This document shows, piece by piece, positions 12,252 through 35,678 of a stretch of DNA of 64,000 nt; within the stretch, counting starts at the first letter, position 1, and each line of letters starts with the position of its first letter. The notes beneath the pieces are model-generated. The model was given only the letters and a program-made list of their open reading frames with translations, had not been told where the DNA came from and did not search any database. Source of the DNA: Salana multivorans (GTDB lineage Bacteria; Actinomycetota; Actinomycetes; Actinomycetales; Beutenbergiaceae); the NCBI RefSeq assembly GCF_003751805.1, contig NZ_RKHQ01000001.1, positions 1,240,001 to 1,304,000 on the forward strand, read 5' to 3'. The position numbers and the translations under genes are program-made.

Positions 12252-12288
12252 CCGCCGGGGCCGCCGTCGCTCGCGGCGCGGCGCCCGG

Positions 12289-18595: not shown

Positions 18596-18669
18596 ACGGC
18601 GTTCTCCTCGTCGAGCGTGACACGTCGTCGGCACGCATCGGTGCGCGCCCGGGATACCCCCTCCGCGGG

Positions 18670-18855: not shown

Positions 18856-19764
18856 CTACTTCAGCCCGGCGAGCTTGATGTTGCCGATGATCTGGCGCTG
18901 GAAGATGAGGAACAGCACGATGACCGGCGCGGCGGCGAGCACCGAGCCCGCCATGAGCAGGCCGAGCTCGCTCGACCGCTCCGACCGGAACGTCGCGAGG
19001 TACTGCTGGACCACGAACCGCTCCGGCGTCGTGATCGTCATGATCGGCCAGACGTAGGAGTTCCAGTAGGCGAGGAACGCGCCGATCCCCATGACGACGA
19101 ACGGCGGCTTCGACAGCGGGAGGAAGAGCTGGACGAAGATCTTCAGCCGCCCGCACCCGTCGAGCTGGGCCGCCTCCTCGAGGCTGCTCGGCACGCTCAG
19201 GTAGTACTGCCGGATGAAGAAGATCGCGCCGGCGGCGGCGGCGCCCGGGACCACGAGGACCGCGAGCGTGTCGAGCATCGCGAGGTTGGTCACGACGATG
19301 AAGCTCGTGAGGAGGATCGTCATGCCGGGGATGAACATCGTCGTGATGACCATGACCCAGATCGCGGTCTTGAACCGGAAGTTCAGCCGCGCGAAGGCGT
19401 AGGCGGCCATCGAGTTGACGGCCAGGCCGAGCACCGTGAACAGGACGGCGCCGAGGAAGGTCCAGCCCAGCGTCCGCAGGAAGGTCGGGTCGGCGAGGAT
19501 CTTCGTGTAGTTCTCGATCTGCCAGACCTCGGGGAAGAACTGGAACGGCGTGGCCACCACCTCGGTGCGGGACTTGAAGCCCGCCACGACCAGCCACGCG
19601 AGGGGGAACAGCGCCGCGAGGAGGAACAGCAGTCCCACCGCGATCTTGCCCGCCGCGTACCAGTACCAGGACGCGGACCGCGTGCGGCGTCGCTCCTCGT
19701 GGACGCCCGGCGCCGTCGGGCGGCCGGGCTGCGCCGGCGCGTCGGAGTCGGTGAGGACCGTCAT
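18856..19764 (-). CDS. ABC sugar importer permease, MalG type (arabinan locus)
   Basis: This 302-residue inner-membrane protein has six hydrophobic segments, the first at about 40-62 (GKIAVGLLFLLAALFPLAWLVVAGFKS). The coupling motif is SLEEAAQLDGCGRLKIFVQLFLPLSKP (EAA loop). The C terminus is QRQIIGNIKLAGLK, typical of CUT1 permeases. With the MalF partner (19764-20702) it would import oligosaccharides delivered by the binding protein at 20816. The ATG at 19764 overlaps the upstream stop by one base (TGATG). No ATPase gene is present, so a shared MsiK-like ATPase is expected. Confidence 0.93.
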   Translation of the reverse strand: MTVLTDSDAPAQPGRPTAPGVHEERRRTRSASWYWYAAGKIAVGLLFLLAALFPLAWLVVAGFKSRTEVVATPFQFFPEVWQIENYTKILADPTFLRTLGWTFLGAVLFTVLGLAVNSMAAYAFARLNFRFKTAIWVMVITTMFIPGMTILLTSFIVVTNLAMLDTLAVLVVPGAAAAGAIFFIRQYYLSVPSSLEEAAQLDGCGRLKIFVQLFLPLSKPPFVVMGIGAFLAYWNSYVWPIMTITTPERFVVQQYLATFRSERSSELGLLMAGSVLAAAPVIVLFLIFQRQIIGNIKLAGLK

Positions 19765-20702
19765 CAGTCGACCAGCCTCTCGGAGTTGATGAACCGGAAG
19801 ACCAGCGCCGAGATCGACCCGAGGACGAGGAAGAGCAGGAGCGCCGCCGCGATCGAGTAGCCGACGTTGAGGTCGTTGCGGAAGTGGTTGAAGATGAACA
19901 GGTTCGGCAGCGTCGTGGAGTTGAGCGGGCCGCCACCGGTCATGACGAGCGGGAGCTCGAACTGCTGGATCGCCCCGACGATCCCCGTCACGATGAGGTA
20001 GAGCGAGACGTTCTTCATCTGCGGCAGCGTGATGAAGAACGTCTTCTGCCACCAGTTGGCGCCCTCCATCGCGGCCGCCTCGTAGTACTCGTTCGGGACG
20101 TCGAGCATGGCCGCGACCATGATGAGCGACGGGATGCCGAGCCCCAGCCAGATGGCGGGGACCGCGATCGCCGGCAGCGCCGTCGACGGGTCACCGAGCC
20201 AGGCGATGGCGTCGACGCCGAACCACCCGAGGACCCAGTTGAGCAGACCGCCGGAGTAGTCGTAGATCATGACGAACAGGATCGAGGCGATGACGCCCGA
20301 GATGATCGTCGGGATGTAGATGCTGACCTTGAGGACGTCGGCCGCCTTGCGCCCGACGCTCACCACGAGGCTGGCGAAGAAGAACGCGAGCAGCAGGATC
20401 GCCGGGACGGTCATCGCGACGAACTTGAGGCCGCGCACGATCGCCTGCCCGAACAGCGGGTCCGTGAGCACGTAGTAGTAGTTGCGCCAGCCGACCCACT
20501 CGGCCGGCTGGTAGAAGCTCCAGTCCTGGAAGGACAGGACGCCGGCCCACACCGCGGGCCAGACCACGAACACCCCCAGCAGCGCCACCGCGGGCAGCAG
20601 CATCAGGTAGGCGACCTTGTTGTCGCGGTACTCGTACCGCGCCCGGTCCCTCCCCCGCACCGCGCCCGACGCCTTCGCGCCGCGTCTCACCTCTGTACTC
20701 AT
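19764..20702 (-). CDS. ABC sugar importer permease, MalF type (arabinan locus)
   Basis: This 312-residue permease has six hydrophobic segments, the first VAYLMLLPAVALLGVFVVWPAVWAG at about 30-54, the WVGWRNYYYVLTDPLF periplasmic start, and an EAA loop VPNEYYEAAAMEGANWWQKTFFITLPQM. It is the second subunit of the CUT1 importer. The ATG at 20702 has GGAGGA four bases upstream. A hairpin at 20780-20808 separates it from the binding-protein gene. Confidence 0.93.
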   Translation of the reverse strand: MSTEVRRGAKASGAVRGRDRARYEYRDNKVAYLMLLPAVALLGVFVVWPAVWAGVLSFQDWSFYQPAEWVGWRNYYYVLTDPLFGQAIVRGLKFVAMTVPAILLLAFFFASLVVSVGRKAADVLKVSIYIPTIISGVIASILFVMIYDYSGGLLNWVLGWFGVDAIAWLGDPSTALPAIAVPAIWLGLGIPSLIMVAAMLDVPNEYYEAAAMEGANWWQKTFFITLPQMKNVSLYLIVTGIVGAIQQFELPLVMTGGGPLNSTTLPNLFIFNHFRNDLNVGYSIAAALLLFLVLGSISALVFRFINSERLVD

Positions 20703-20779
20703 CGCTTCCTCCGCTGCCTTCCGACGCCACCGCTCGACCGGGCGGCCGGGCCGCCGCGACGAGCGGCGGACCCGGCCGG

Positions 20780-20808
20780 GCCGGTGGGGACACCAGGTCC
20801 CCACCGGC
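20780..20808 (-). promoter_or_regulatory. Hairpin between binding-protein and permease genes
   Basis: GCCGGTGGGGAC (20780-20791) and its complement (20797-20808) form a perfect 12-bp stem with a 5-base loop, just past the binding-protein stop (20816). It may stabilise or partly terminate the message so that the binding protein is made in excess. Hairpins also lie at 44324-44358 and 51142-51171 in the other two importer operons. Confidence 0.7.
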
Positions 20809-20815
20809 GCTCCGG

Positions 20816-22207
20816 TCAGCTCGCCGGCGCCTTCGAGGGCAGGTCGTCCTTCTCGATGATCGTCTGGATCGCCTTCGCGGCGGTGTCGAGCGCGCCGTCG
20901 ATGGACTCGGCGCCCTTCATGCCGCTCTCCATCGCGGTGCCGACCGCGAGGGAGACGTCCCACGGGTAGGTGACGCCGGGGTGGGCGTCGGGAGCGATGT
21001 CGTTCATGATGATGCCCGACCACGGGGCGTCGGCGGCCGCCTGGTCGGCGGCGACGGCGTCCTGCACGGCCTGACGGACCGGGACCTTCGTGAACTGCGT
21101 GTCGACGAAGAACGGGACGAGCACCTCGGGGTCACCCGCGAGGACCCACTCCATGAACGCGGCCGCGGCCTCGGGGTTCTTGGCCTTGCCGTCGATGACC
21201 CACTGGAAGTTGCCGAGCGTGGTCGTCGTGCGACCGTCGCCGTCGGGCGAGCTCGGGAACTTGCCGATGCCGGTCGTGTGCAGCAGGTCGGAGTAGTCGG
21301 AGCCGACCTCGGACATCATCCAGGAGCCGGAGACCTTGTACGCGACCTTGCCCTCGCCGTAGTCCTTGGCCGTGAGGTAGCCGCCGAGGTCCTGCTTGGG
21401 CATGTAGCCCTTGTCGTACAGGTCCTTGTAGAACTGGATGAGCGAGCGGTAGGCGTCGTTCTGGATGTTCGGCGCGGACCAGTCGTCCGTGAGCGCCGTG
21501 TGGCCGGACGCGTTGTACTGCTGGCCGACCGTCGACCAGGCCATCGTGACCGCGTCGGCCGCGGGGGAGATGCAGAACTGGCCGTCCGACAGCGTCGGCT
21601 GGATCTTCTCGCAGGCCGCCATGAGGTCGTCCCACGTCGCGGGCGCGTTCTCCGTGTCGACGCCGGCCTTCTCGAGCATGTCCGTGTTCCAGAACAGCAC
21701 GGTCTGGGGCTCGAGCAGGAGCGGGTAGGCGTAGAAGGTGCCGTCGTACTCGGCCATCGGGACGGCCGCGTCGATGAGCTGGTCGAGGGCGTCGGACGAC
21801 AGGAGGCTGTCGAGCTCGTGGAACTGCCCGGCCTGGGCCGCCTCGTCGACGTCGCCGGCGAACGTGTAGATGTCCGGGGCCTTGCCAGCCGCCTGCGCGG
21901 CCTTCATCTTCTGGTCCCACGCGTCGGCGGGGACCTCGGTGTCCTTGACGACGACCTTGTCCTGCGCCGCGTTGAACTCCTTGACGACGTTCGCGTACCA
22001 CTCGTTCTCCACCGGGGTGAACGTGCGGTGCCAGAACTCGATCGTCACGGCGTCGCCGCTGCCGGCGTCCGACGACGATCCTCCGTCGCCCGTGGTCTCC
22101 CCGGCCGACTCACCCGGCGTGCTGGAGCCGCAGGCTCCGAGTGCCAGAGCGCCGGCCAGCCCGAGCGCGACGAGCGGGGCTCGCCTCATGCGGGTGCTGC
22201 TCTTCAT
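20816..22207 (-). CDS. Sugar-binding lipoprotein of ABC importer (arabinan locus)
   Basis: This 463-residue class I/CUT1 binding protein has a lipobox LALGAC (Cys26) after MKSSTRMRRAPLVALGLAGA, a Gly/Ser/Asp linker, then the mature fold from VTIEFWHRTFTPVENEWYANVVKEFNAA, with FYAYPLLLEPQTVLFWNTDMLEKAGV and a C-terminal domain rich in Trp and Tyr. The likely ligand is D-arabino-oligosaccharides released by the surface GH183, inferred from the shared operator and neighbouring enzymes. The ATG at 22207 has GAAGGAGG upstream. It is first in the operon with two permeases. Confidence 0.9.
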   Translation of the reverse strand: MKSSTRMRRAPLVALGLAGALALGACGSSTPGESAGETTGDGGSSSDAGSGDAVTIEFWHRTFTPVENEWYANVVKEFNAAQDKVVVKDTEVPADAWDQKMKAAQAAGKAPDIYTFAGDVDEAAQAGQFHELDSLLSSDALDQLIDAAVPMAEYDGTFYAYPLLLEPQTVLFWNTDMLEKAGVDTENAPATWDDLMAACEKIQPTLSDGQFCISPAADAVTMAWSTVGQQYNASGHTALTDDWSAPNIQNDAYRSLIQFYKDLYDKGYMPKQDLGGYLTAKDYGEGKVAYKVSGSWMMSEVGSDYSDLLHTTGIGKFPSSPDGDGRTTTTLGNFQWVIDGKAKNPEAAAAFMEWVLAGDPEVLVPFFVDTQFTKVPVRQAVQDAVAADQAAADAPWSGIIMNDIAPDAHPGVTYPWDVSLAVGTAMESGMKGAESIDGALDTAAKAIQTIIEKDDLPSKAPAS

Positions 22208-23211: not shown

Positions 23212-23234
23212 GCGTACTAGCACGACTAGTACGC
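23212..23234 (-). terminator. Terminator-like hairpin at the end of the GH172 operon
   Basis: GCGTACTAG (23212-23220) pairs with CTAGTACGC (23226-23234) across a 5-base loop. The stem includes the TAG stop codon of the oxidoreductase gene, the last gene of the operon. Confidence 0.55.
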
Positions 23235-24350
23235 CGGGACCTCGAGCCGCTCGCCGCCCCGCAGCGCGGAGGCGTGCGCGACGATGCCGGGCGCCGTGAT
23301 CGTCGCGGCGACGGCCGGACCGATCGCCGACTCCCGGCCGGAGACCACGGCGTCGACGAGCTCGTGCACCAGGTGCGGGTGGGAGCCGCCGTGCCAGGCG
23401 TGGGTCTCGATCGCCGGCCGGTCACCGGGCGGCTGGTACCGCCCGGGCCGGGTGAACGGGCGCAGCTCCCGCGGCAACGTCTCGACGCGGTCCGGGACGT
23501 CGAGCTCCACGCGCTCGATCGGGCGGCCGCGCCGCGCACCGTCGGGCGGGCCGGCCGCGTACACGACGGCGGCGCCACCCTCCTGCGATGGCCACTCGAG
23601 CGCGCCCTGGTCGCCGTAGACGTTGAAGCCCTCCGTGTACGCGCGGGCGTTCTCGAAGAACGACAGCGTCACCTGGGCGACCAGCGGCTCCTCCCCCGCG
23701 AGCGTCAGGAGCGCCGACTCGATCGGGAACGGGTTGCTCCCGTCACCGGTGTGCGCGGGCAGGTGCGTGCCACTGCCGACGCAGACGACGGACTCGGCCC
23801 GCCGCCCGGCCAGTCCCAGCAGCGGTGCGACCACGTGCGTCGCGTAGCACATCGGCGGATAGCCCATCCAGTACCAGGGGAAGCCGTCGAGGTCCTGCAT
23901 GTGGGCGCCGGACAGGTACCCGATCCGGCCCAGGGCGCCGGTGTCGCGCAGGTGCAGCGCGTGCAGGTACTCGCGCTGGTAGAGCGAGGTCTCCATCATC
24001 ATGTACCGCCCGGAGGCGGCCGCGGTGGCCTGCAGCACCCGGTCGATGTCGTCCAGCGTCGTCGCCATCGGCACGGCGCTCGCGCACGCGCGCCCGCTGG
24101 CGAGCACCTGGAGCGTCTGGTCCACGTGGAACCGGACCGGCGAGCAGAGGTGGACGGCGTCCCAGCCGCCGGAGGCCAGCGCGTCGTCGAGCGACGCGTA
24201 GGTGGCGTCGAGGCCGAGCCGGTCCCCCAGCTCCCCGCGCACCGCGGCGTCGGGCTCGGCGAGCGCGACCCGGCCGACGTCCGGGTGGAGCTGGTAGAGG
24301 TAGAGGAAGTCGCGGCCGAAGCCGCCGCCCACGACGAGGACGTCGATCAC
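23226..24350 (-). CDS. Gfo/Idh/MocA-family oxidoreductase
   Basis: This 374-residue protein has an N-terminal Rossmann fold starting MIDVLVVGGGFGRDFLYLYQLHP, then the two-domain Gfo/Idh/MocA layout with CYATHVVAPLLGL (the usual catalytic-region His) and a C-terminal alpha/beta half. The family normally has a conserved EKP motif before the catalytic region; here the place reads CASAVPMATT, so the Lys is missing and activity may be altered or non-redox. It is the last gene of the operon that starts with GH172, 10 bases after the preceding stop, so a role in modifying an arabinan-derived sugar is likely. GTG 24350 has AAGGGAG upstream. Confidence 0.82.
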   Translation of the reverse strand: MIDVLVVGGGFGRDFLYLYQLHPDVGRVALAEPDAAVRGELGDRLGLDATYASLDDALASGGWDAVHLCSPVRFHVDQTLQVLASGRACASAVPMATTLDDIDRVLQATAAASGRYMMMETSLYQREYLHALHLRDTGALGRIGYLSGAHMQDLDGFPWYWMGYPPMCYATHVVAPLLGLAGRRAESVVCVGSGTHLPAHTGDGSNPFPIESALLTLAGEEPLVAQVTLSFFENARAYTEGFNVYGDQGALEWPSQEGGAAVVYAAGPPDGARRGRPIERVELDVPDRVETLPRELRPFTRPGRYQPPGDRPAIETHAWHGGSHPHLVHELVDAVVSGRESAIGPAVAATITAPGIVAHASALRGGERLEVPAY

Positions 24351-24360
24351 GGGACTCCCT

Positions 24361-25518
24361 TCAGAGACGGTCGAGGTCGACCGAGAACCAGAAGACGTTG
24401 TACGGCCCCCACAGCGAGAGCGTGAAGTACAGCGTCCGTCCGTCGGCCGAGGTGTAGCGCGGACTGAGGTAGGGCGAGTAGAGGCCCGGGTAGTCCGCGC
24501 CCGAGACCAGCTCGATCGGCTCGCCCCACGGCCCCCACGGCGTGAGCCCCTCGCGGATGTAGGCGTTGCCGAGGTCGGAGTAGGTCATGACCCACCGCTC
24601 GAGGTAGGTCGACCACATGACGGAGAGCTCGCCGACCGTCGGGTCGACGACGAGCACGGCGTCCGTCAGGTCGCTGCTCCACCGCGGTGACCCGTCGTCG
24701 TCGGTGCCGACGAAGTAGGAGTAGGCGGCCTCGTCCTCGACCGCGGCCCGCGTGGCTGGCACCCGCATGAGCGAGACCCCGCCGAACCGGCCGGCCGGGA
24801 TGGTCCAGAAGTAGACGTACTCCTCGCCGTCCTCGACGACGTGGGCGGTGGCGACCTGGATCACGCCGGAGTCACCGGGCCAGCGCGGCGCGTCCAGCGT
24901 CTCCCACGTCGCCCCGTCGTCGGTCGACCGGGCGAGCGCGGCGTAGTTCGCGTCCCAGGCGCCGGGCTCGTTCCAGCTCTCGACGGACATGAACAGGACG
25001 TAGATCGCGTCCTCGACGGCGAACCCGTAGGTCGGGATCTTCGTCACCTCGGCACCGATCCCGCCGGGATCGTGGTCGCCCTCGACGATCGGCGCGGCCA
25101 GCCCGACGTCGTCGACGAGCCAGCCGTCGAACGTGAGGCCGTCGCTGGGGTCGTCGTCGGTCGTCCACGCCACCACGTTCGAGCGCCAGAACTCGCCCTG
25201 GCCGCCGTAGGAGTCCGGGTCCCGGACACCGAACGTGTCCCCGAACAGGAGGTACGTCCGGTCCCCCACGGTGACCATCGAGCCCAGGTCGGTGCCGGCG
25301 ACGGCGACCGACTCGGTGTCGTTGATCGCCCCCGGACCGGTGAGCTGGGCGATCTCGGTCAGGTTGCTCACGCCGCGCAGGACGAACGGGCGGTCGGTGT
25401 CGTGGTCCACGACGACGGGTCCCTCCGGTGCTGGGGCGCCGCCGCAGGCCGCGAGCGTCGCCGTGGTGGTGAGGAGCAGCGCGAGCGCCGCGGCCACGCC
25501 GCGGGTCACCCGGGTCAT
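24361..25518 (-). CDS. DUF4185 (GH183) lipoprotein, probable D-arabinanase
   Basis: This 385-residue lipoprotein has the lipobox TLAAC (Cys25) and then a single DUF4185 domain to the C terminus. It shares AGTDLGSM (Asp77), YLLFGDTFG (Asp94), GEFWRSNVVAW, the FMSVESWNEPGAWDANYAALARSTDDGATWE blade and the C-terminal YFTLSLWGPYNVF with the anchored enzyme at 16466, so both belong to one subfamily. It would act on arabinan at the outer face of the membrane, probably shortening fragments before import. It lies in the GH172 operon with ATGA overlap to the preceding gene. The endo or exo mode is not decided by sequence. Confidence 0.82.
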   Translation of the reverse strand: MTRVTRGVAAALALLLTTTATLAACGGAPAPEGPVVVDHDTDRPFVLRGVSNLTEIAQLTGPGAINDTESVAVAGTDLGSMVTVGDRTYLLFGDTFGVRDPDSYGGQGEFWRSNVVAWTTDDDPSDGLTFDGWLVDDVGLAAPIVEGDHDPGGIGAEVTKIPTYGFAVEDAIYVLFMSVESWNEPGAWDANYAALARSTDDGATWETLDAPRWPGDSGVIQVATAHVVEDGEEYVYFWTIPAGRFGGVSLMRVPATRAAVEDEAAYSYFVGTDDDGSPRWSSDLTDAVLVVDPTVGELSVMWSTYLERWVMTYSDLGNAYIREGLTPWGPWGEPIELVSGADYPGLYSPYLSPRYTSADGRTLYFTLSLWGPYNVFWFSVDLDRL

Positions 25519-27158
25519 GACGCCCCCCGGAACCAGACCTCGAGCTCGCGGATCGACGTGTAGCGCATCCCGCCCCCGGGCTCCCCGGCGATCCGCACCG
25601 CGTCGGCGCACTGGGCGTCGAGGTCGAACACGTACTCGTCCTCCTCCAGCGCGGTCCAGTCGGTCGGGTAGGGCGGCGTCACCGTCGCCGCCACCTCGTG
25701 CCAGACGCCGTCCCGCCGGACCTCGACGCGCGGGCTCGACGCGAACCAGCCGCCGAGGGAGTCCTGCGGCCCCGGGACGTAGACGACCCGGTCGAACCAG
25801 CGGGGCGATGGCCACTCGATGCCCCAGACGTCCTCGCCGGAGCCCGGCCCGTAGGCGGAGTCCTCCGCGACGTCGCGCCGGCCGTCGTTGAGCACGTGCT
25901 CGCCGCCCTCGCGGACGCGCGGGACGAGGACGGACGCGTCGGCGGAGCGGGCCAGGTTCTCCGACGGCGCGGTCGGCCGCGGCGGCTCCTGCCCCGTCCC
26001 CGGGTCGAACCGCACGCGGCGCAGGCCGAAGCAGTAGGCGCGCCCGCCACGCGAGGACGCCGGGACGAACCAGTTGCTCTGCAGCCACATCTCGCGCCCG
26101 TCGTCGGAGATGAACCGCGAGGGCATCGTCGGCGCGTAGCCGCCGTGCTTGGCCAGCGGCGAGCGCGGGCCGTGCCACGGGAAGTGGCCGAAGTCGTGGG
26201 AGTGCAGCAGCCGCCACGGCCCCCAGGGAGCTGGGGCCTCGAAGAACTCGAAGGTGTACTCGCTCCAGGTGGAGTAGAGGTAGCGCCCGAGCCCGGCGTT
26301 CCACACCACGCCGCCCTGCGCGATGCAGGTGAAGTCGCAGGCGGAGAAGCCGAGCGCGGGCGTCGGGTAGAACCGCCGGGTGTCCTCCAGCACGGGCACC
26401 CTGCGCGCGACGTCCGACGACCAGACCGGACGGAGCCCACCGTCCGCGCCGTCAGGCTCGGTCCCCGCGACGAACTCCCAGGCCGCCCGGTCCTGGATCG
26501 CGTCGGCGCGCACACGCGCGAGGAAGAGCTGCGTCGGGTCGGGCACGACGTGGGAGAACGACGTGCGCCAGTTGCCGTCGATCCCGTAGGCGTAGACCCA
26601 CTCGGAGCCGCCGTTGGAGCGGCCGAGGTCGAGGAACATGACGGTCGTGAAGACGTGGTCGGTGAACAGCGGCTGCGCCGGCCAGGTCCACGTGAGCCCG
26701 CGGTCGTCGCTGCGGCACACGGTCGCGGTCGGGGCCTCGTTGAACGTGTCGGGGCCGGCGCCGCAGCGCAGGTCCTGCACGGCGAGGTAGAGCTCGTCGC
26801 GGCCGTCGCCGTCGCCGTCGACCGCCACCATCCCGGTCGGCTTGCGGTTGAACCGCTCCGGGTCCCAGGCCGGCGCGACCGCGTCGCCCGCCGACAGCCG
26901 TTCGCCGCGCAGCCCCTCCCGAGGCGTGCCGGTCACCCGGTTGACGACGATGTCGCGCCAGTCGTGCCGCGCGAACCCGGTGCCGTCGCCGCACGCCGTG
27001 TAGAGCGCGTCGTCGTCGGCCCAGGCGGCCGGCCACAGGTCGCCGTCGCTCTCGGTCAGGACGCTCGCGGCCTGGTCGACGTGCGCGACGCGCAGCAGCA
27101 GCGGCGAGCGGTCGCGCGCGACGGGGACGCCGTCGACGACGGAGACGTCGGGGGTCAT
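25515..27158 (-). CDS. DUF4185-like protein fused to an F5/8-type C domain, no signal peptide
   Basis: The 547-residue product begins MTPDVSVVDGVPV with no signal sequence. A DUF4185-like five-bladed-propeller domain covers about 25-410 (SDGDLWPAAWADDDALYTACGDG carries Asp40 and Asp58 at the 18-residue spacing of the family; later SDDRGLTWTWP, WNAGLGRYLYSTWSEY, FEAPAPWGPWRLLHS). A discoidin-like F5/8C domain covers about 430-547 (NLARSADASVLVPRVREGGEHVLNDGRRDV ... SIRELEVWFRG). The next upstream gene (27155-28261) is its close paralogue with a lipoprotein signal. It could be an intracellular arabinan-oligosaccharide hydrolase. ATG 27158 overlaps the upstream stop. The GH183 assignment is by resemblance only. 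Confidence 0.72.
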   Translation of the reverse strand: MTPDVSVVDGVPVARDRSPLLLRVAHVDQAASVLTESDGDLWPAAWADDDALYTACGDGTGFARHDWRDIVVNRVTGTPREGLRGERLSAGDAVAPAWDPERFNRKPTGMVAVDGDGDGRDELYLAVQDLRCGAGPDTFNEAPTATVCRSDDRGLTWTWPAQPLFTDHVFTTVMFLDLGRSNGGSEWVYAYGIDGNWRTSFSHVVPDPTQLFLARVRADAIQDRAAWEFVAGTEPDGADGGLRPVWSSDVARRVPVLEDTRRFYPTPALGFSACDFTCIAQGGVVWNAGLGRYLYSTWSEYTFEFFEAPAPWGPWRLLHSHDFGHFPWHGPRSPLAKHGGYAPTMPSRFISDDGREMWLQSNWFVPASSRGGRAYCFGLRRVRFDPGTGQEPPRPTAPSENLARSADASVLVPRVREGGEHVLNDGRRDVAEDSAYGPGSGEDVWGIEWPSPRWFDRVVYVPGPQDSLGGWFASSPRVEVRRDGVWHEVAATVTPPYPTDWTALEEDEYVFDLDAQCADAVRIAGEPGGGMRYTSIRELEVWFRGAS

Positions 27159-28261
27159 CCGAGCCTCACCTCGCGCAGCCCGAACCAGTAGGAGGTCACG
27201 CCGGCCGGCGCGCACGGGCAGACGTTCGACTGCATCCACATCGTCCTCTCGTCATCGGAGACGAACTTCGACGGCACGGTCGTGGCGTAGCCGCCGATCC
27301 GGTCCGCGGTCCACGGGTACTCCCCGAAGTCCTCGGACAGGACCGACGTCCACGGACCCCAGGGCTCGGGCGCCTCGTACAGCTCGACCGTGTACTCGGT
27401 CCACGAGGAGTACAGGTAGCGCTCGTGCCGCGGCAGGTAGGTCACCCCGCCCTGCGACAGCACGGTCATGCCGTGCACGCGCCGCTCGTCCACGAGGACG
27501 GGGCGCTTCGCCGCGACGTCGCTCGTCCACGTCGGCTCGTCGTCGCCGGGCTCGCCGGCGTAGAACTCCCAGCTCGACGCGTCCTGCACCGACGCCACGG
27601 GCACCCGGGCGAGGAAGAGCTCGGTCGGGTCGGCCACCGCGTCGGTGAACGAGTCGCGCCAGCTTCCGTCGAGCCCGTAGGCGTAGACGTGCTCCGCGTC
27701 CGGTCGCCGCTCGGCGTCGCGGCCGTAGTCGGCGAACCAGATCGTCGTGAGGACGCCGTCGTCGAACATCGGGGCGCTCCGGTCCCACGTCCAGGTCGCG
27801 CCGTGGTCGTCGCTCCGCGCGATCGTCGCGTTCGGGGCCCGGTCGAAGTCCGGCGCGAGATCCTGGACGGCCAGGTAGAGGACGCCGTCGACGCAGAGCA
27901 TGCCGGTCGGCTTGCGGGTGTAGCCGGCCTCCGTCGTCCACACCTGCCCGAGGTCGTCGCCGACGCCGAGCGCCTCCCCGGCCAGGTCGTCGGACGCGGG
28001 CGACCCGGTGATCCGGTTCATGACGATGTCGCTCGTGACGGAGCCGAACCCGGCCCCGTCGCCGTTCGCCGCGTACAGCGCGTCGTCGTCGGACCAGCAG
28101 CTCGGCCACAGGTCGCCGTCGGACACCCCGATCGCGGTCGGGGTGTCCGCGATGCTCACGGCGGTGATCGGCGACGAGCCGCCGGCGCCGCACGCGGGGA
28201 GCAGCAGGACGCCGGCGGTCAGCGCGGCGAGGCTCGATGCGGCGCGTCGACGGACCCTCAT
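27155..28261 (-). CDS. DUF4185-like lipoprotein
   Basis: This 368-residue lipoprotein has lipobox LLLPAC (Cys24) and one DUF4185-like domain. GVSDGDLWPSCWSDDDALYAANGDG keeps Asp50 and Asp68, 18 residues apart. SDIVMNRITGSPA, RKPTGMLCVDGVLYLAVQDL, ARSDDHGATWTW, PRHERYLYSSWTEYTVELYEAPEPWGPW and WMQSNVCPCAPAGVTSYWFGLREVRL are shared with the 25515 protein. These two form a second subfamily distinct from the FGDTFG type. They probably attack a different linkage or branch of the same polymer (inference). The ATG overlaps the stop of the P-loop kinase gene (ATGA). Confidence 0.75.
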   Translation of the reverse strand: MRVRRRAASSLAALTAGVLLLPACGAGGSSPITAVSIADTPTAIGVSDGDLWPSCWSDDDALYAANGDGAGFGSVTSDIVMNRITGSPASDDLAGEALGVGDDLGQVWTTEAGYTRKPTGMLCVDGVLYLAVQDLAPDFDRAPNATIARSDDHGATWTWDRSAPMFDDGVLTTIWFADYGRDAERRPDAEHVYAYGLDGSWRDSFTDAVADPTELFLARVPVASVQDASSWEFYAGEPGDDEPTWTSDVAAKRPVLVDERRVHGMTVLSQGGVTYLPRHERYLYSSWTEYTVELYEAPEPWGPWTSVLSEDFGEYPWTADRIGGYATTVPSKFVSDDERTMWMQSNVCPCAPAGVTSYWFGLREVRLG

Positions 28262-28857
28262 GCGTCCACCCGCGCGCCCTCGGTGCGCTGCAGGGTCTCG
28301 CGCGCCCAGGCCCACACGCGTCGAGCTGTGTCCGCCGGCGCCACCCCGGTGGTCTCGAGGATCGCGACCGGGACCGGCCACGCGCTCGCCCCGTCCCACC
28401 GCTCCCAGCGCATCGTCCCGGGGACGCGGATCACCTCGGGCCGGTGGCGCGGGTCGCGCGCGTGGTCGAGGAACCACGCGCCGAACCGGTCGTGGTGGGC
28501 GATGCTCTCCTCCGGCTCGCCGCGGGCGCGCAGCCGCGCGGCGCGCTCCTGCGGCGAGCAGTGCAGGACGCAGGCGGCGACGCCGTCGAGCCGGTCGGCC
28601 GACGGCGCGGCGAGCAGCTCGCCGATCGGCACCTGGCCGCAGAGCAGCAGGTGGACGCCGTCGGCCTGGAGGTCAAGGGCGTGCCGGACCCAGCGCTCGA
28701 CCGCGCCGTGGCGCCAGGCCGTGTCCGCGTCGAGCGGCACGCCGATGGAGTCGAACTCGGCGCACCGCACGTCCCACGGAGCCCAGTCCGCCGCCGAGAG
28801 CGCCGGGAGCACGGTCGACTTGCCGGCGCAGCTCGCGCCGGTCAGGGACAGCAGCAT
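28258..28857 (-). CDS. P-loop kinase / ATPase-like protein
   Basis: The 199-residue protein begins MLLSLTGASCAGKSTVLPAL, a perfect Walker A (GASCAGKST) at residues 7-15. It continues with VHLLLCGQVPIGELL and CVLHCSPQERAARLRARGEPEESIAHHDRFGAWFLDHA, the LID-like Arg/Glu-rich section of small AAA_33/nucleoside-kinase-like proteins. The substrate is unknown. It lies between GH172 and a DUF4185 gene in a tightly coupled operon, so phosphorylation of a sugar or nucleotide-like intermediate is possible. I know of no D-arabinan locus with such a gene described. Confidence 0.7.
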   Translation of the reverse strand: MLLSLTGASCAGKSTVLPALSAADWAPWDVRCAEFDSIGVPLDADTAWRHGAVERWVRHALDLQADGVHLLLCGQVPIGELLAAPSADRLDGVAACVLHCSPQERAARLRARGEPEESIAHHDRFGAWFLDHARDPRHRPEVIRVPGTMRWERWDGASAWPVPVAILETTGVAPADTARRVWAWARETLQRTEGARVDA

Positions 28858-28876: not shown

Positions 28877-30019
28877 TCAGGCCAGCGGGGCCCGCGGGGG
28901 CGTCGCGCCGATGTCGGGAACCGGGGCGGTCCCTAGGTGAACCTCCAGGTCGTCGGCGCTGGGCGTCCGGGGTCGACGGGCCGTCGGTCGGTCGAGGTAG
29001 AAGATCGCCGTCGACGCGATGTCGTCCCGCAGCGGCAGGTAGCGCCACCCGCTGCGCCAGCCGAGCGCCTGGATGTCGACGCGGCGCAGGCCGCGCTCGA
29101 ACCGGATCGGGTCGGCGACGTGCCAGCGGTACATCCCGAACCGCTGCTGGCTGACGTAGAGGCCGTCCGGCCGGATCACCTGCGGCATGCCGAGGTAGGG
29201 CGTCGAGAACTCGGTGTACCCCTGACCCGGGATGTCGAAGTTCCACGCGCCGCCGAAGTAGTCCTCGGTGCCCGTCCCGCAGATGGTCGGGTAGTCGGTG
29301 TCGTCGTCGAGGTAGAACTTGATCTCCCCCTCGCCCCACCAGCCGTTGGAGTTGACGCCCCAGGCGATGTAGGTGCCGACGTAGTGACCCTGGCCCTCGA
29401 CGTCCTCGACCAGGACGTGGGGCACGCGGTCCTCCAGCGGGTTCGAGCGGTGCCACTGGGCGTGGAAGTAGCCCTCCCCGCCGACGTCCTCGCCGACCTC
29501 GTACGTCACCTGGTAGTAGACGCGGACGTCGACGGTCGAGGTGTTCTCGAGCGTGAGGTGGGCGCCGGTGCGGAACGGCATCGGCCAGTAGGAGTTGAAG
29601 CCGCCGTGCGGGTTGGCCGCGATCATCTGCGAGCTGACCTGCGAGAAGACGCCCCAGCCGTTGCAGAAGAAGTCGCCGTAGGGGACCTCGACCGCCGGCT
29701 CCTGCGCGCCGTCCCAGTAGGCGCGCAGCAGGAGGGTGCGCCAGTTGTCGGTGTGCGTCGTGATCCAGATGTGCGTGATCCGACCGGCGCCGTCGATCCG
29801 GGCCAGGTCGAGCGTCTCGCCGGCCTTGATGTCGACGCTCGGGGAGATCTTCCAGCCGGGGCCGAGGTCGCGCGCGTTCCAGGCACCCGTGCCCTCGGTC
29901 GCGCGCCCGCCACCACCGACGGCACCGTCGAAGTTCTCCGGGGAGATCGAGCGCGTGCGAGAGGCGCGCAGCCGGGAGATCCCGGCCAGCTCGGAGTGTG
30001 GGTGGGCGGGGGCGCTCAT
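28877..30019 (-). CDS. DUF2961 (GH172) glycosidase, probable exo-alpha-D-arabinofuranosidase
   Basis: This 380-residue cytoplasmic protein (no signal peptide) has one DUF2961 domain: RTRSISPENFDGAVGGGGRAT, GPGWKISPSVDIKAGETLDLARIDGAGRITHIWIT, VEVPYGDFFCNGWGVFSQVSSQMI, GGFNSYWPMPFRTGAHLTLEN, and the acidic motifs WWGEGEIKFYLDDD (Glu230/Glu232) and GTGTEDYFGGAWNF (Glu252) that carry the catalytic Glu pair of GH172. Characterised members act on D-fructofuranose or D-arabinofuranose ends, including exo-alpha-D-arabinofuranosidases active on mycobacterial arabinan. It would release D-arabinose from imported oligomers. It is the first gene of a six-gene operon, with an operator 51 bases upstream. 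ATG 30019 has GAGGAAG upstream. Confidence 0.88.
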   Translation of the reverse strand: MSAPAHPHSELAGISRLRASRTRSISPENFDGAVGGGGRATEGTGAWNARDLGPGWKISPSVDIKAGETLDLARIDGAGRITHIWITTHTDNWRTLLLRAYWDGAQEPAVEVPYGDFFCNGWGVFSQVSSQMIAANPHGGFNSYWPMPFRTGAHLTLENTSTVDVRVYYQVTYEVGEDVGGEGYFHAQWHRSNPLEDRVPHVLVEDVEGQGHYVGTYIAWGVNSNGWWGEGEIKFYLDDDTDYPTICGTGTEDYFGGAWNFDIPGQGYTEFSTPYLGMPQVIRPDGLYVSQQRFGMYRWHVADPIRFERGLRRVDIQALGWRSGWRYLPLRDDIASTAIFYLDRPTARRPRTPSADDLEVHLGTAPVPDIGATPPRAPLA

Positions 30020-30081: not shown

Positions 30082-30184
30082 GTCATCGTAGGGTGGCCCC
30101 CGACGGATGTCAACGCCGTCGAGACGGTCGGTGACGCGATCACCGACCATCGATACGTCCAGCCGACACCCCGAGGGGAGCGAT

Positions 30185-31171
30185 GTGGCCACCATCTACG
30201 ACGTCGCGCGACTGGCCGGGGTGTCCCCCGCCACGGTCTCGCGTGTCTTCAACGGCGTCGGCGTGTCGCCGCAGAAGACGCAGGCCGTCCGCGACGCCGC
30301 CGACGAGCTGCGCTACACCCCCAGCCGCGCGGCGCGGACGCTGCGCAAGCAGAGCGCCGAGGTCATCGCCCTCATCATCCCCGACATCGAGAACCCCTAC
30401 TTCACGGAGCTCGCACGCGGCGTCGAGGACGTCGCCCAGCGCGCCGGGTTCTCCGTCGTCCTGTGCAACAGCGACTCGGAGACCGAGAAGGAGGCCACCT
30501 ACCTCGAGATCGCCCTGTCGGCGAACATGGCGGGCGTCATCGTCGCGCCGGCCTCCGCCGACACCGACCTCGGTCCGACGCTCGCGATGGGCCGACCCGT
30601 CGTCGCCGTCGACCGCGGGACCCACGACCGGATCGACCGCGTCGTCATGGCGAACCTGCAGGCCGGCCGCGCCGCGACCGAGGCGCTGCTCGCCGCCGGA
30701 TACCGCCGGGTCGCCTGCCTCACGGGGCCGCGGGAGATCGAGACGGCGCACGAGCGCGCGCTCGGCTGGCGCGCCGCCATGGCGACCCACCTGCCCGACG
30801 CCGAGCTCGACTCCCTGCTGCGCTACTCGACGTTCCGCGTCGGCGGCGGCCGCGACGGCATGACGGAGCTGCTCGCGCTCCCCGAGCCCCCCGACGCCAT
30901 CGTCGCCGGGAACAACCTCCTCGGCGTCGGCGCCCTCCAGGTGCTCACCGAGCGCGGCCTCACCCCGCCGGAGGTCGGCGTGTCCGTCGTCGGCTCGCTG
31001 CCGTTCACCACGCTGAGCCCGCAGGCGGTCACGATCGTGCGGCTGCCGGCGCGCGAGATGGGCGTCCAGGCGGCGGAGATGCTGCTCGAGCGGATCGCCG
31101 GCGACGACGAGCCGGCGCGCACCGTCGTGCTGCCGGGCGCGGTCCAGGCCGCGACGCTGCTGCGCGCCTGA
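30185..31171 (+). CDS. LacI-family regulator of the D-arabinan locus
   Basis: This 328-residue regulator begins directly with the LacI DNA-binding helix-turn-helix VATIYDVARLAGVSPATVSRVFNGVG and hinge YTPSRAARTLRKQSA, followed by a periplasmic-binding-type effector domain (IALIIPDIENPYFTELARGVE ... PPDAIVAGNNLLGVGALQVL). The GTG at 30185 has AGGGGAG upstream and places the HTH at the N terminus, as usual; the ATG at 30107 would add 26 unrelated residues. The palindrome GAAATCGATTTC or close variants occur at 18673, 18695, 22331, 22386, 30070 and 31510. The inducer is probably a D-arabinose-containing sugar or an intermediate such as D-ribulose (inference). Confidence 0.92.
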   Translation: MATIYDVARLAGVSPATVSRVFNGVGVSPQKTQAVRDAADELRYTPSRAARTLRKQSAEVIALIIPDIENPYFTELARGVEDVAQRAGFSVVLCNSDSETEKEATYLEIALSANMAGVIVAPASADTDLGPTLAMGRPVVAVDRGTHDRIDRVVMANLQAGRAATEALLAAGYRRVACLTGPREIETAHERALGWRAAMATHLPDAELDSLLRYSTFRVGGGRDGMTELLALPEPPDAIVAGNNLLGVGALQVLTERGLTPPEVGVSVVGSLPFTTLSPQAVTIVRLPAREMGVQAAEMLLERIAGDDEPARTVVLPGAVQAATLLRA

Positions 31172-31566: not shown

Positions 31567-33114
31567 ATGCGCACACGCTGCACGCTCGGGGTCGATATCG
31601 GCACCTCCAGCTCCAAGGGCGTCCTCGTCGACGAGTCCGGCACCGTCCTGCGGACCGCGACCATCGCCCACGACGTCGCCCGCCCCCACCCCGGCTGGGT
31701 CGAGATGGACGGTCGCGTCTGGTGGGACGAGCTCGTCGCGCTGAGCCGCGAGCTGCTCGTCGAGGACGTCGACGTCGTCGCGGTCGGGGTGAGCGGGATG
31801 GGCCCCTGCGTCCTGCTCGTCGACGACCACGGCGTCCCGGTGCGCCCCGCGATCCTCTACGGCGTCGACACGCGCGCCGTCGAGGAGATCGCGGAGATGA
31901 CCGACGAGCTCGGCGTCGACGCCATCACCGCCGTCGGCGGCTCGCGCCTCACCTCCCAGGCCGGCGGGCCGAAGATCCACTGGGTCCACCGCCACGAGCC
32001 CGAGGCGTACGCGCGCGCCCGGCGGCTGTTCATGCCCGCGTCGTGGCTCGCCCACCAGCTCACCGGCGCCTACGTGCTCGACCACCAGTCCGCCAGCCAG
32101 CTCTCCCCGCTCTACGACATCCAGGACGGGTCGTGGCACACGCCGTGGTGGGAGCGCTACGCCCCCGGCCTCGAACGGCCGGAGCTGCGCTGGCCCGGCG
32201 ACGTCGCCGGCCACGTGACGCCCGAGGCCGCCGCCCTCACCAACCTCCCGGTCGGCATCCCGGTCATCACCGGCACGATCGACGCCTGGACGGAGGCGGT
32301 GAGCGTCGGCGCGCAGAACGACGGCGACCTCATGCTCATGTACGGCACGACGATGTTCCTCGTCGCCACCGGGACGCAGACCCTGCGCACGCCGTCGATG
32401 TGGACGACGGTCGGCGCCTTCCCCGGCACCCGCAACCTCGCGGGCGGCCTCGCGACGTCGGGCGCGCTCACGGCGTGGCTGCGCGACCTCACCGGGAGCG
32501 ACTACCCGAACCTGCTCGCCGACGCCGAGTCCTCCCCGCCCGGCGCGAACGGCCTCGTCGTGCTCCCCTACTTCGCCGGCGAGCGCACCCCGATCCTCGA
32601 CCCGGACGCCCGCGGCGTCGTCGCTGGGCTCACGCTCTCGCACACCCGCGGCGACCTGTACCGCGCGGCCCTCGAGGCAACGGCGATGGGCGTGCGGCAC
32701 AACGTCGAGACGATGCGCGCCGCCGGCGCCGACGTGCGCCGGATCGTCGCGGTCGGCGGCGGGACGCAGGGCGCGCTGTGGCTGCAGATCGTCTCCGACG
32801 TGACGGGGCTGGTCCAGGAGGTCCCGCGCACGACGATCGGCGCGAGCTACGGCGCCGCGTTCCTCGCCGCCTGCGCCGCACCGACGGTTGACGCGGACGA
32901 CGCCGACGCGACCGGTGACGGCGCGACCGCCGCGCCCCGGATCGAGGACTGGAACCCCGTCGCCACCCGGATCACTCCCGACGAGACCACCGCGGCGACC
33001 TACGACTGGCTGTTCGGCCGGTACCTCGAGCTGTACGCCGCGACCCGCGACATCGTCCACGACCTCGCTCGCCACCAGCGCGACACCAGCATCACGATCA
33101 CGGAGACCTCATGA
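31567..33114 (+). CDS. FGGY-family sugar kinase, probable D-ribulokinase
   Basis: This 515-residue kinase has the N-terminal phosphate-binding LGVDIGTSSSKGVLVDE, GMGPCVLLVD, and the FGGY catalytic-base motif GTIDAWTEA (Asp239). The C-terminal half has the adenosine-site motif IVAVGGGTQGALWLQIVSDVTG and GASYGAAFLAA. The family phosphorylates ketoses and polyols. Because it is translationally coupled to GH116 and a FucI-type isomerase, the likely substrate is D-ribulose formed from D-arabinose, giving D-ribulose 5-phosphate for the pentose phosphate pathway. GAGGAGG precedes ATG 31567. Its stop overlaps the GH116 start. An acidic insertion (DADDADATGDG) lies near residue 445. Confidence 0.88.
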   Translation: MRTRCTLGVDIGTSSSKGVLVDESGTVLRTATIAHDVARPHPGWVEMDGRVWWDELVALSRELLVEDVDVVAVGVSGMGPCVLLVDDHGVPVRPAILYGVDTRAVEEIAEMTDELGVDAITAVGGSRLTSQAGGPKIHWVHRHEPEAYARARRLFMPASWLAHQLTGAYVLDHQSASQLSPLYDIQDGSWHTPWWERYAPGLERPELRWPGDVAGHVTPEAAALTNLPVGIPVITGTIDAWTEAVSVGAQNDGDLMLMYGTTMFLVATGTQTLRTPSMWTTVGAFPGTRNLAGGLATSGALTAWLRDLTGSDYPNLLADAESSPPGANGLVVLPYFAGERTPILDPDARGVVAGLTLSHTRGDLYRAALEATAMGVRHNVETMRAAGADVRRIVAVGGGTQGALWLQIVSDVTGLVQEVPRTTIGASYGAAFLAACAAPTVDADDADATGDGATAAPRIEDWNPVATRITPDETTAATYDWLFGRYLELYAATRDIVHDLARHQRDTSITITETS

Positions 33115-35678
33115 CGCGCCGCCTCCCCCACACCGCCGAGCGCGCCGCCTTCCCGCTCGGCGGCATCGGCACGGGCAACGTGTCGCTCGGCGCCCGCGGC
33201 GAGCTGCGCGACTGGGAGCTGGAGAACGGCCCCGACAAGGGTCGCGTCAACCCCTACTCGTTCTTCGCGATCCACGCCGCGCCCCTCGCCCGGCCCGACG
33301 CGGCGTCCCGCCCGGCCGTCACGCGCATCGTCGAGGCGCCCCTGACCGGCCGGCACGACCTCGACGCCGGCTACGCGTTCGACCGGCTCGCCGGCCTGCC
33401 GCGGCTCGCCGGCGCGACGATGACGGGGCGCTACCCCGTCGTCGACATCGAGTTCACCGACGACGATCTGCCGGTCGAGGTCAGCCTCCACGCGTTCACC
33501 CCGCTCGTCCCGCTGGACGCCGACGCGTCGGGGATCCCCGGCGCCGTCCTGCGCTACGACGTCACCAACCCGGGGCCGGACCCCGTCCGCGTGACGGTCG
33601 CCGGCAGCATGAGCCACACGGCCGGGCGCGGCGAGGGCCCCTACGGCATGCGCGCGCGGCAGAGCGTCGCGTGGCGCGAGGACGGCGGCGTGCGCGGGCT
33701 CGACTTCGGCGTCGAGCTGCCCGAGGACGACCCCGGTCACGGGACGCTCAGCCTCACCACGACGGACCCGAGCGTCACGGTCAAGCCGCAGTGGTCGGTC
33801 GGCTTCTGGCCCGACGGCTCGCGCCTGTTCTGGAACGACTTCGCCTCCGACGGCCTGCTGGAGCCGGAGGCCCGCGCCACCCTCGAGGACCGCCCGCGCG
33901 GCGTGTTCGCGGAGGGTGACGACGGCCGGGAGAGCTTCACCGAGGAGGAGCTGCTCGAGCTGCTGCCGCGGGTGCGGACCGGCTCGCTCGGCATCGTGCA
34001 CACGCTCGCGCCGGGCGAGACGCGCTCGTTCGAGTTCGTGCTCGCCTGGAGCTTCCCGAACCGCCACCGCGGCTGGGGCGGGCACATCGTGTTCCGCGAC
34101 CCGAACTGGGGCGACGTCGTGCGCAACCACTACGCGACGCTCTGGCCCACCGCGTGGGACGCCGCCCGCCACCTGCACGCCGAGCTCCCGCGGCTCGAGG
34201 CCGCGACGGACGCGTTCGTCGAGGCGCTGTACGGCGGGACGCTCGACCCGGTGGTCGCCGACGCGGTCGGCGCCAACATCGCGGCGGCGCGCTCGACGAC
34301 GGCCTTCGTCGTCGAGACCCCCAACCCCGACCTGGGCGAGGGCCCCGTGCTCACGGCGTGGGAGGGCTCCTTCGACCACGGCGGCTCGTGCGAGGGGACG
34401 TGCACGCACGTGTGGTCCTACGCCCAGACGCTCGCCTGGCTCTTCCCGAGCCTCGAGCGCAGCGCGCGCCGCGTCGAGTACCTGCTCGAGACGGACGAGG
34501 AGGGCGCGCAGAAGTTCCGCTCCAACCGCGTGTTCGGCGGCCCGGCCTGGTTCATGACGCCGGCCGTCGACGGCCAGCTCGGCACGTTCCTGCGACTGCA
34601 CCGCGAGTGGCGGTTCAGCGGCGACGACGCGTTCCTGCGCGAGCTGTGGCCGGCGGCCCGGAGCACCCTCGACCACGCCGCCACCCACTGGGACCGCGAC
34701 GGCGACGGCCTCCTCGACGGCGAGCTGCACAACACCTACGACATCGAGTTCCACGGCATCGAGCCGCTCGCCAACTCGATGTACCTCGCGGCGCTGCGGG
34801 CGGGCGTCGTCATGGCCGAGCACCTCGGCGAGCCCGAGACCGCGGTGCGGTGGCGCGGGCTGGCCGACACGGTGGCGCGCGGGATGGACGACGTGCTGTG
34901 GAACGGGGAGTTCTACCGCCAGGTCATCGAGGACGCGGACGCCTACCGCTACCAGTACGGCGACGGGGTCCTGTCCGACCAGCTCCTCGGCCAGTTCCAC
35001 GCCTACCTCGCGGGCCTCGGCGACCTGCTCCCGCGCGAGCACGTGCGCAGCGCGCTGCACGCCGTCGTCGAGCACAACCTGCGCGAGGACCTCACGCGGC
35101 ACGAGAGCACCCAGCGCGTCTACGCGATCGGCGACGAGGGCGGACTGCTGCTCGCGTCCTGGCCGCGCGGCGGGCGCCCCGCGATCCCGTTCGTCTACAG
35201 CGACGAGGTCTGGACCGGCATCGAGCACCAGGTCGCGACGACGCTCGCGTACGCCGGGCTGCCGCGGGAGGCGCTGCGCGTCGAGCGGCTGCTGCGGTCG
35301 CGGTACGACGGCGTCGTCCGCAACCCGTGGAACGAGATCGAGTGCGGCAACCACTACGCGCGCTCGCTCGCGTCGTGGGGGCTGCTGCTCGCGTTCTCGG
35401 GCGCGCAGTGGGACGCACCGACCGGGACGCTCGCGTTCGCCCCGATCGAGCTCCCGTTCCGGGGGCTCTTCACCACCGGGTCCGCCTGGGGCGTCGTCGA
35501 GGTCGACGACACCACCACCCGGATCCGGGTGCACGGGGGCGTCCTCGACGTCGACCGTCTCGTCGTGGGAGGCCGCGAGGTCGCCCGCTCGATCACCCTT
35601 CCGGCGGGTCGGAGCCAGCTCTGGACCGCCCGGAACCACACCGCCGACCAGGCGGCCACCACCCAGGAGTCAGCATGA
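33111..35678 (+). CDS. GH116 glycosidase, probable exo-beta-D-arabinofuranosidase
   Basis: This 855-residue cytoplasmic protein has the GH116 layout: an N-terminal beta-sandwich starting FPLGGIGTGNVSLGARGELRDWELEN (the GBA2 N-domain signature) and a C-terminal (alpha/alpha)6 barrel from about residue 390. The probable nucleophile is Glu428 in SCEGTCTHVW, where other members have EGxEYRMY, and the probable acid/base is Asp623 in LSDQLLGQF. Most GH116 are beta-glucosidases, but one branch was shown to be exo-beta-D-arabinofuranosidase acting on the beta-linked ends of mycobacterial arabinan. The altered nucleophile motif and the neighbours favour that role here. ATGA overlaps couple it to the kinase and the isomerase. 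Confidence 0.86.
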   Translation: MTRRLPHTAERAAFPLGGIGTGNVSLGARGELRDWELENGPDKGRVNPYSFFAIHAAPLARPDAASRPAVTRIVEAPLTGRHDLDAGYAFDRLAGLPRLAGATMTGRYPVVDIEFTDDDLPVEVSLHAFTPLVPLDADASGIPGAVLRYDVTNPGPDPVRVTVAGSMSHTAGRGEGPYGMRARQSVAWREDGGVRGLDFGVELPEDDPGHGTLSLTTTDPSVTVKPQWSVGFWPDGSRLFWNDFASDGLLEPEARATLEDRPRGVFAEGDDGRESFTEEELLELLPRVRTGSLGIVHTLAPGETRSFEFVLAWSFPNRHRGWGGHIVFRDPNWGDVVRNHYATLWPTAWDAARHLHAELPRLEAATDAFVEALYGGTLDPVVADAVGANIAAARSTTAFVVETPNPDLGEGPVLTAWEGSFDHGGSCEGTCTHVWSYAQTLAWLFPSLERSARRVEYLLETDEEGAQKFRSNRVFGGPAWFMTPAVDGQLGTFLRLHREWRFSGDDAFLRELWPAARSTLDHAATHWDRDGDGLLDGELHNTYDIEFHGIEPLANSMYLAALRAGVVMAEHLGEPETAVRWRGLADTVARGMDDVLWNGEFYRQVIEDADAYRYQYGDGVLSDQLLGQFHAYLAGLGDLLPREHVRSALHAVVEHNLREDLTRHESTQRVYAIGDEGGLLLASWPRGGRPAIPFVYSDEVWTGIEHQVATTLAYAGLPREALRVERLLRSRYDGVVRNPWNEIECGNHYARSLASWGLLLAFSGAQWDAPTGTLAFAPIELPFRGLFTTGSAWGVVEVDDTTTRIRVHGGVLDVDRLVVGGREVARSITLPAGRSQLWTARNHTADQAATTQESA

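Follow-up and report, generated by a model that had tools for sequence, protein, structure and literature searches.

Two proteins of a GH183-related DUF4185 subfamily, one a predicted lipoprotein and one signal-less, in a D-arabinan locus of Salana multivorans

D-Arabinan is a polymer characteristic of mycobacterial walls, and arabinogalactan and lipoarabinomannan can be mapped with enzymes that cleave it in new ways. Within the open-access PubMed Central (PMC) literature, searched by title and abstract (subscription journals, preprints and supplements fall outside this scope), enzymes of the DUF4185/GH183 family have been studied in only two papers, both from 2023 (PMC10509167 and PMC10115798). 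The first describes a polysaccharide utilisation locus (PUL) of Microbacterium arabinogalactanolyticum, whose four DUF4185 genes are induced by D-arabinose and mycobacterial cell wall. The starting candidate of that work, MIAR_33220 (300-400 residues, isoelectric point 4.3-4.6), was insoluble in Escherichia coli and was called 'elusive', and other Microbacterium species were said to lack a homologue in their PULs (Shimokawa et al. 2023, PMC10509167). The present analysis deals with two adjacent genes of Salana multivorans, P0002 (27155-28261, minus strand) and P0001 (25515-27158, minus strand), in a stretch of 64,000 nucleotides (the window; contig NZ_RKHQ01000001.1, positions 1,240,001 to 1,304,000). 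It is somewhat more probable than the contrary that they encode GH183-related hydrolases of a D-arabinan locus, one exported and the other cytoplasmic, where catalysis, cytoplasmic location, substrate and linkage are all inferred.

P0002 encodes 368 residues that form a single SDGDLWP-type DUF4185 domain, and it is a predicted surface lipoprotein with a hydrophobic leader and a lipobox-like LPAC motif at its N-terminus. P0001 encodes a signal-less protein of 547 residues, also of SDGDLWP type, with a predicted DUF4185-like five-bladed propeller and a C-terminal beta-sandwich. The positions and the different signal state of both genes agree with a preliminary description of the window. The Pfam model for DUF4185 (PF13810, curated cut-off 39.5 bits) is passed by P0002 with 51.4 bits, whereas P0001 stays below it (31.6 bits, E 1.3e-7); still, the two proteins are 49% identical over 369 aligned positions (E 1e-101), which is far above chance and confirms the motif sharing previously noticed. 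The predicted catalytic residues, nucleophile and acid/base respectively, are D50 and D68 in P0002 and D40 and D58 in P0001. Their spacing of 18 residues is also found in EndoMA1, EndoMA2 and a classic GH183 protein of the window (16466-18634); it had been taken as the family spacing, but it is not strict, because the neighbouring gene P0003 (24361-25518, minus strand) has 17. The genome contains four DUF4185 matches (E <= 0.001), every one inside the window. With P0001 as query, tblastn gave no match in phage records and phmmer found no PDB chain by sequence up to E 1; the A2 profile found only two sialidase-type PDB chains (E 0.12 and 0.16).

Profiles and predicted structures connect both proteins with GH183. 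In hhalign the subfamily matches classic GH183 with 98.7% probability and E 2e-16, the motif TDLG..GDT falling on GDLW..GDG without a gap; a first E-value of 1.8e-29 was set aside because two rows carried an EndoMA1-like extra domain, and the value given here comes from the rerun without those rows. AlphaFold models were obtained for P0001 (pLDDT 87.0, pTM 0.88, 25 sequences) and P0002 (pLDDT 86.4, pTM 0.87, 23 sequences). The top match in VIA-align was EndoMA1 (PDB 8ic1) for both models, with Z 29.7 over 285 aligned residues at 2.7 A for P0001 (next-best other entry 21.0) and Z 29.4 over 278 residues at 2.8 A for P0002 (next-best 20.3), so that EndoMA1 stands about 9 Z units ahead of the best other entry in each case. 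As modelled, P0001 and P0002 have the five-bladed propeller of the EndoMA1 kind; the different fold that the preliminary description had named as the result speaking against its proposal was not seen.

The active site was compared between 54 classic GH183 cores, chosen by a pattern forcing both Asp, and 48 subfamily rows (51 distinct frames minus the duplicates L090, L096 and L022; P0001 and P0002 included), whose filter forces, among the residues named here, the first Asp only. The GH183 catalytic Asp pair is kept at equivalent positions in all 48 subfamily rows, the first being forced by the filter, and both the second Asp (D58 of P0001) and the equivalent of EndoMA1 Arg198 are invariant (48/48 each). 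The classic rows have Glu at position 243 (53/54), Arg at 198 (53/54), Tyr at 293 (54/54) and Trp at 138 (46/54). Within the subfamily, the column that hhalign matches with Glu243 holds Gln in 46 of the 48 rows (Thr in one, a gap in another), that of Tyr293 holds His (22), Asn (8), Tyr (5), Ile (4) or Phe (3), and the column set against Trp138 varies, Trp not being one of its listed residues. E300 is Glu in 43/48 rows and, in the P0001 model, it is placed just after the hairpin starting beside Q281. As the Asp pair is kept and the pocket columns are changed, the catalytic pair seems to be retained and the sugar-holding part rebuilt, which is in line with the distinct DUF4185 subfamily proposed earlier. 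The variant E381A of DgGH4185b is reported to have broadly kept its activity; E381 may or may not match the Glu243 position.

The same columns would suit a subfamily that is catalytic on D-arabinan-bearing glycans and opens a bond closed to classic GH183, GH172 and GH116, such as the point where arabinan joins galactan or mannan, a branching site or a capped terminus. This explanation takes up the plausible idea of the preliminary description that the proteins may cut a different linkage. It is rather unlikely, and it agrees with the kept Asp and Arg, with the change of Glu243 to Gln and with the loss, in most rows, of the sugar-stacking Trp138 and Tyr293. The constant company of GH172 around P0002-type lipoproteins (12/12 loci, see below) also fits it, and so do the two classic GH183 genes in the same genome, which make a redundant subfamily unlikely; on the other side, the pocket comparison is one of aligned columns, not of geometry.

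The signal state of P0001 depends on its start codon. Upstream of the ATG the frame is open for 31 residues only, with no signal-like hydrophobic stretch: the top 12-residue hydrophobicity is 0.74 in the upstream stretch plus N-terminal segment and 0.95 within the first 45 residues, compared with 1.8-2.5 in signal-bearing controls (P0002, P0003, the solute-binding protein and the classic GH183 of the window, EndoMA1 and EndoMA2). This measure alone is no proof, because genes expected to be cytoplasmic give 0.0-1.9, the upper value coming from the Rossmann segment of a Gfo/Idh/MocA oxidoreductase. The sequence GAGGTGAGG, a strong ribosome-binding site, stands five bases before the ATG, which overlaps the P0002 stop by 4 bp. 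Three Microbacterium orthologs, 69-70% identical (L033, L034 and L035), lack a signal at their ATG too and have in common with P0001 the N-terminus (V/A)DGxPV...L(L/R)LRVAHVxQA after it. According to the hydrophobicity of the full upstream frame and to this conserved N-terminus, no in-frame start of P0001 supplies a signal. A signal peptide missed through a wrong start was rejected on the basis of the upstream frame, the ribosome-binding site and the overlap at the ATG, and the upstream start that the preliminary description had considered fatal to its idea was not found; the cytoplasmic/exported pair suggested there is supported, since the signal is also absent in the three full-length P0001 orthologs found.

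A second explanation, quite unlikely, is that both proteins are ordinary GH183 endo-alpha-D-arabinanases, P0001 being exported without a classical signal or starting elsewhere. Homology and fold do match EndoMA1, and there is a precedent in Rv3707c, for which a signal became discernible only with a start further upstream (PMC10115798). The ortholog frames of L033 and L034, moreover, run on without a stop well upstream of the ATG, across the overlapping P0002 gene, where each contains a hydrophobic segment (1.74 and 2.16). From the sequence, this segment is judged to reflect the conserved 3' end of P0002 read in the other frame; in L035 a different gene lies upstream and the frame has no hydrophobic stretch. 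The ATG is taken as the true start of the P0001 orthologs. The upstream frame of P0001 itself, the signals for translation at its ATG and the conservation of the N-terminus after the ATG in the three orthologs all speak against this explanation, and so does the pocket, with Gln instead of Glu243 and mostly His or Asn instead of Tyr293.

The C-terminal domain of P0001 (residues 398-547; 25518-25967, minus strand) had been described as an F5/8C domain. Its putative identity as a galactose-binding-like or discoidin-like beta-sandwich comes from the predicted fold, whereas the Pfam scores are below threshold (PF00754, 13.5 bits against a cut-off of 28.2), so that the F5/8C label is weak by sequence. 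PF22633 was found in 2 of 13 members, with a best E of 0.013. Foldseek gave E 7e-13 for the whole two-domain P0001 model against a Micromonospora sialidase chain including its galactose-binding module. Two PDB profile matches of the domain, BurrH and galactose oxidase, were discarded, the first because its score adds up several repeats and the second because it presumably sits in the propeller of galactose oxidase, outside the F5/8 domain. Domains of the F5/8C kind are as a rule extracellular, which speaks in favour of an exported P0001. The P0001 ortholog of Microbacterium sp. Root180 (L036:12709-13185, and likewise at this place in L153) has lost, in frame, the whole propeller; the remnant keeps the N-terminal segment and the C-terminal sandwich as a small stand-alone sandwich protein.

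The distribution of the subfamily was studied in two ways. A scan of named genomes with two peptide patterns around SDGDLWP, which misses members without those patterns, gave 21 loci, 10 of them from Microbacterium and the rest from further Actinomycetota, Bacillota, Myxococcota, Thermomicrobiota and Acidobacteriota. In all 10 Microbacterium loci, M. arabinogalactanolyticum included, a P0002-type gene lies downstream of GH172; one copy (L039:10001-11211) is split over two frames by a break near 11050. The P0002 ortholog of L038 has beside it an EndoMA1-type gene (L038:11278-11955) of which no more than residues 284-509 were matched. Within a sample of 396 genomes of the order, the subfamily is present in 19 (P0001 as query, E <= 1e-30), and GH172 in all 19 as against 50 of the 377 others (Fisher 4e-16, relatedness ignored; 14 of the 19 belong to the window's own family). 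Against the wide occurrence in Microbacterium, five of the seven GH172-bearing genomes in this sample that belong to the family taken as Microbacteriaceae have no subfamily match at E 1e-30.

The gene contexts differ with the signal state, whose labels were assigned by hand from the hydrophobicity listing. Signal-less two-domain members have a close GH172 (at least 55% identical to that of the window) in 13 of 15 readable loci, the other two having a GH172 of 33% identity; among signal-bearing two- or three-domain members a close GH172 occurs in 2 of 13, both in locus L045 (Fisher p 4e-4, relatedness ignored). This comparison leaves out L148 and L080/L150, which start near a contig end, L151/L082 and L044, which are single-domain with an unsure start, and L154, L155, L048, L049 and L066, which are distant, truncated or frame-broken. 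P0002-type single-domain lipoproteins are accompanied by GH172 in 12 of 12 loci (the window, L030-L039 and L152); L065, cut near a contig end, and L050, single-domain with a membrane-type leader, were not counted and neither has GH172. In the careful tree the P0001 clade (the window plus L033-L035, four rows) has support of 100/100 and the P0002 clade (10 rows) of 100/99. Since each is strongly supported with its own orthologs, both are old branches, and a recent tandem duplication was rejected.

An improbable explanation of this distribution is that the real substrate is a different furanoside and D-arabinan loci are one setting among others. For eleven of the 13 signal-bearing two- or three-domain members the fetched DNA shows no close GH172 (55% identity or more), and members occur in Paenibacillus, Cohnella, Archangium and Thermomicrobiales; nevertheless, the GH172 loci of Microbacterium and of the window hold most or all of the D-arabinan genes, and the Archangium member L042 carries an EndoMA1-type extra domain.

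Other features of these relatives were observed. The extra domain of the secreted Archangium protein (L042:11630-12082) is a third domain following the sandwich and is 33% identical to the putative D-arabinan-binding domain of EndoMA1; the third domain of an Actinotalea member (L045:9815-11911) is similar to it by alignment. Three signal-bearing two-domain members without GH172 (L041:2791-4308, L046:5207-6661 and L058:6390-7754) lie near sulfatase-like genes, recognised by eye from their motif, and L041 and L058 have ABC permease genes nearby as well; the sulfatase-like neighbours hint at another substrate. Besides, a distant GH172-like gene (31-33% identical to that of the window) adjoins a P0003-type GH183 in L051-L055, L062 and L067; it stands alongside a close GH172 in L051-L054 and without one, in the fetched DNA, in L055, L062 and L067. 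Its specificity is possibly another one.

Several observations weigh against P0002 and P0001 being an exported/cytoplasmic pair that acts on D-arabinan. Many subfamily relatives have no nearby GH172, and the subfamily is therefore not tied to a D-arabinan substrate. No P0001 ortholog was found in the 21 kb of the M. arabinogalactanolyticum locus. The signal-less members grouped in a quick tree (17 of 19 rows, SH-like approximate likelihood ratio 95) and were without support in the careful tree, whose bootstrap had not settled, so that a single signal-less clade is not claimed. The start codon of P0001 is a predicted one, and the open upstream frames of L033 and L034 have to be taken into account. 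EndoMA1 together with the GH172 and GH116 enzymes fully degrades D-arabinan in vitro (PMC10509167), therefore P0001 would have to speed up this breakdown inside the cell or to open a bond absent from those substrates. Finally, the substitution E243Q nearly abolished EndoMA1 activity (PMC10509167). This result would suit GH183-derived non-catalytic proteins with an oligosaccharide-binding or regulatory function, a very improbable explanation considering that D58 and the Arg198 equivalent are invariant in 48/48 rows although the filter does not demand them, and that a further acidic position, E300, is available near Q281.

If the exported/cytoplasmic pair is real, P0002 would be anchored outside the cell and would cut the D-arabinan of foreign actinobacterial arabinogalactan or lipoarabinomannan together with two classic GH183 proteins, and an ATP-binding cassette (ABC) importer would take up the fragments. 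P0001 would then cut, in the cytoplasm, those imported oligosaccharides on which GH172 (exo-alpha) and GH116 (exo-beta) act slowly or not at all, and an isomerase and a kinase would pass the D-arabinose into metabolism. The reaction would be a hydrolysis with retention of the anomer, D40/D50 serving as nucleophile and D58/D68 as acid/base. A bolder proposal can be put forward only tentatively: P0001 might represent the first branch of the GH183 superfamily to be recognised as cytoplasmic, with subsites rebuilt around Gln281 and possibly Glu300, cutting imported arabino-oligosaccharides at a junction, branch or cap that no known D-arabinan enzyme opens, while the sandwich would grip the soluble fragment and not the cell wall.

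The genes required for such a scheme surround the pair, and the locus contains the complete D-arabinan set, as in the utilisation locus of M. arabinogalactanolyticum (PMC10509167). On the minus strand, the run consists of GH172 (DUF2961; 28877-30019), a P-loop kinase similar to AAA_18 (28258-28857), P0002, P0001, P0003 and the Gfo/Idh/MocA oxidoreductase (23226-24350), which is the last gene of the closely spaced run; three junctions have 4-bp overlaps, and co-transcription is inferred. The GH172 is 84% identical to that of L031, the M. arabinogalactanolyticum locus, whose place fits ExoMA1 (MIAR_33200). P0003 encodes a classic GH183-type lipoprotein (DUF4185, E 8e-81), 69% identical to the gene that occupies the MIAR_33320 position in L031. 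There follow, on the same strand, the ABC importer (18856-22207), composed of two permeases and a solute-binding lipoprotein (SBP_bac_8), and the classic GH183 (16466-18634), which has a C-terminal EndoMA1-like domain and is 45% identical to EndoMA1. The plus strand carries genes for a LacI-type regulator (30107-31171), an FGGY sugar kinase (31567-33114), a GH116 (33111-35678) that is 71% identical to the GH116 of the M. arabinogalactanolyticum PUL, and a fucose-isomerase-like protein (35672-37327) that is expected to act on D-arabinose. The small P-loop kinase recurs in the Microbacterium D-arabinan loci L030, L031, L037 and L039.

Among the characterised proteins, EndoMA1 (GH183 endo-alpha-D-arabinanase, PDB 8hhv/8ic1) is like P0001 and P0002 in its five-bladed propeller, in the Asp pair 18 residues apart and in Arg198. 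However, it is only 15-22% identical to them in structure alignments, it has a Glu243 that is Gln in the subfamily and a Trp138 and a Tyr293 that are mostly not kept there, and it is secreted and has another C-terminal domain than P0001. AraH2 (Rv3707c) of Mycobacterium tuberculosis (PDB 8an0) also has the DUF4185 propeller (VIA-align Z 19.1 with P0001 and 20.0 with P0002) and raised the same question of a missing signal, but there an upstream start supplied it (PMC10115798), whereas none was found for P0001. The exo-acting enzymes GH172 ExoMA1 and GH116 ExoMA2 resemble P0001 in being signal-less, in belonging to the same type of PUL and in having been proposed as intracellular (PMC10509167), although their folds are unrelated. 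Signal-less GH183 proteins beyond the re-annotated Rv3707c and a subfamily with Gln in place of Glu are not described in the available text of PMC10509167 and PMC10115798; P0001, a signal-less sister not named there, is the newer part of the pair.

The closest counterpart of P0002 is found in the M. arabinogalactanolyticum PUL itself (L031, record JCM9171), whose gene at 11152-12687 is EndoMA1, near-identical to PDB 8hhv. The order of the genes is GH172, short-chain dehydrogenase/reductase, P0002 ortholog and EndoMA1, and the ortholog (L031:9998-11098) is 77% identical to P0002, with 366 residues, a lipoprotein signal, a calculated isoelectric point of 4.34 and a DUF4185 score of 51.0 bits. 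Gene order, length and isoelectric point, not a locus tag, are the basis on which this gene fits MIAR_33220; the P0003 ortholog of L031 also matches MIAR_33220 in length and isoelectric point. The preliminary description knew of no activity reported for this type. For P0002 the type itself is not unreported, since its ortholog (77% identical) is, judging by gene order, the counterpart of MIAR_33220 in the published PUL; the description is right that no activity is reported for it in the available text of PMC10509167. Of the four DUF4185 proteins of this well-studied Gram-positive locus for D-arabinan, the one that had remained unexplained is now placed in a defined subfamily, and homologues from several genomes are alternatives to the insoluble MIAR_33220. 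In contrast to the absence claimed in PMC10509167, nine further Microbacterium loci carry a gene of the MIAR_33220 type, one of them split by a frame break. Like P0002, the ortholog in L031 is a single-domain lipoprotein, and its place in the PUL is between GH172 and EndoMA1.

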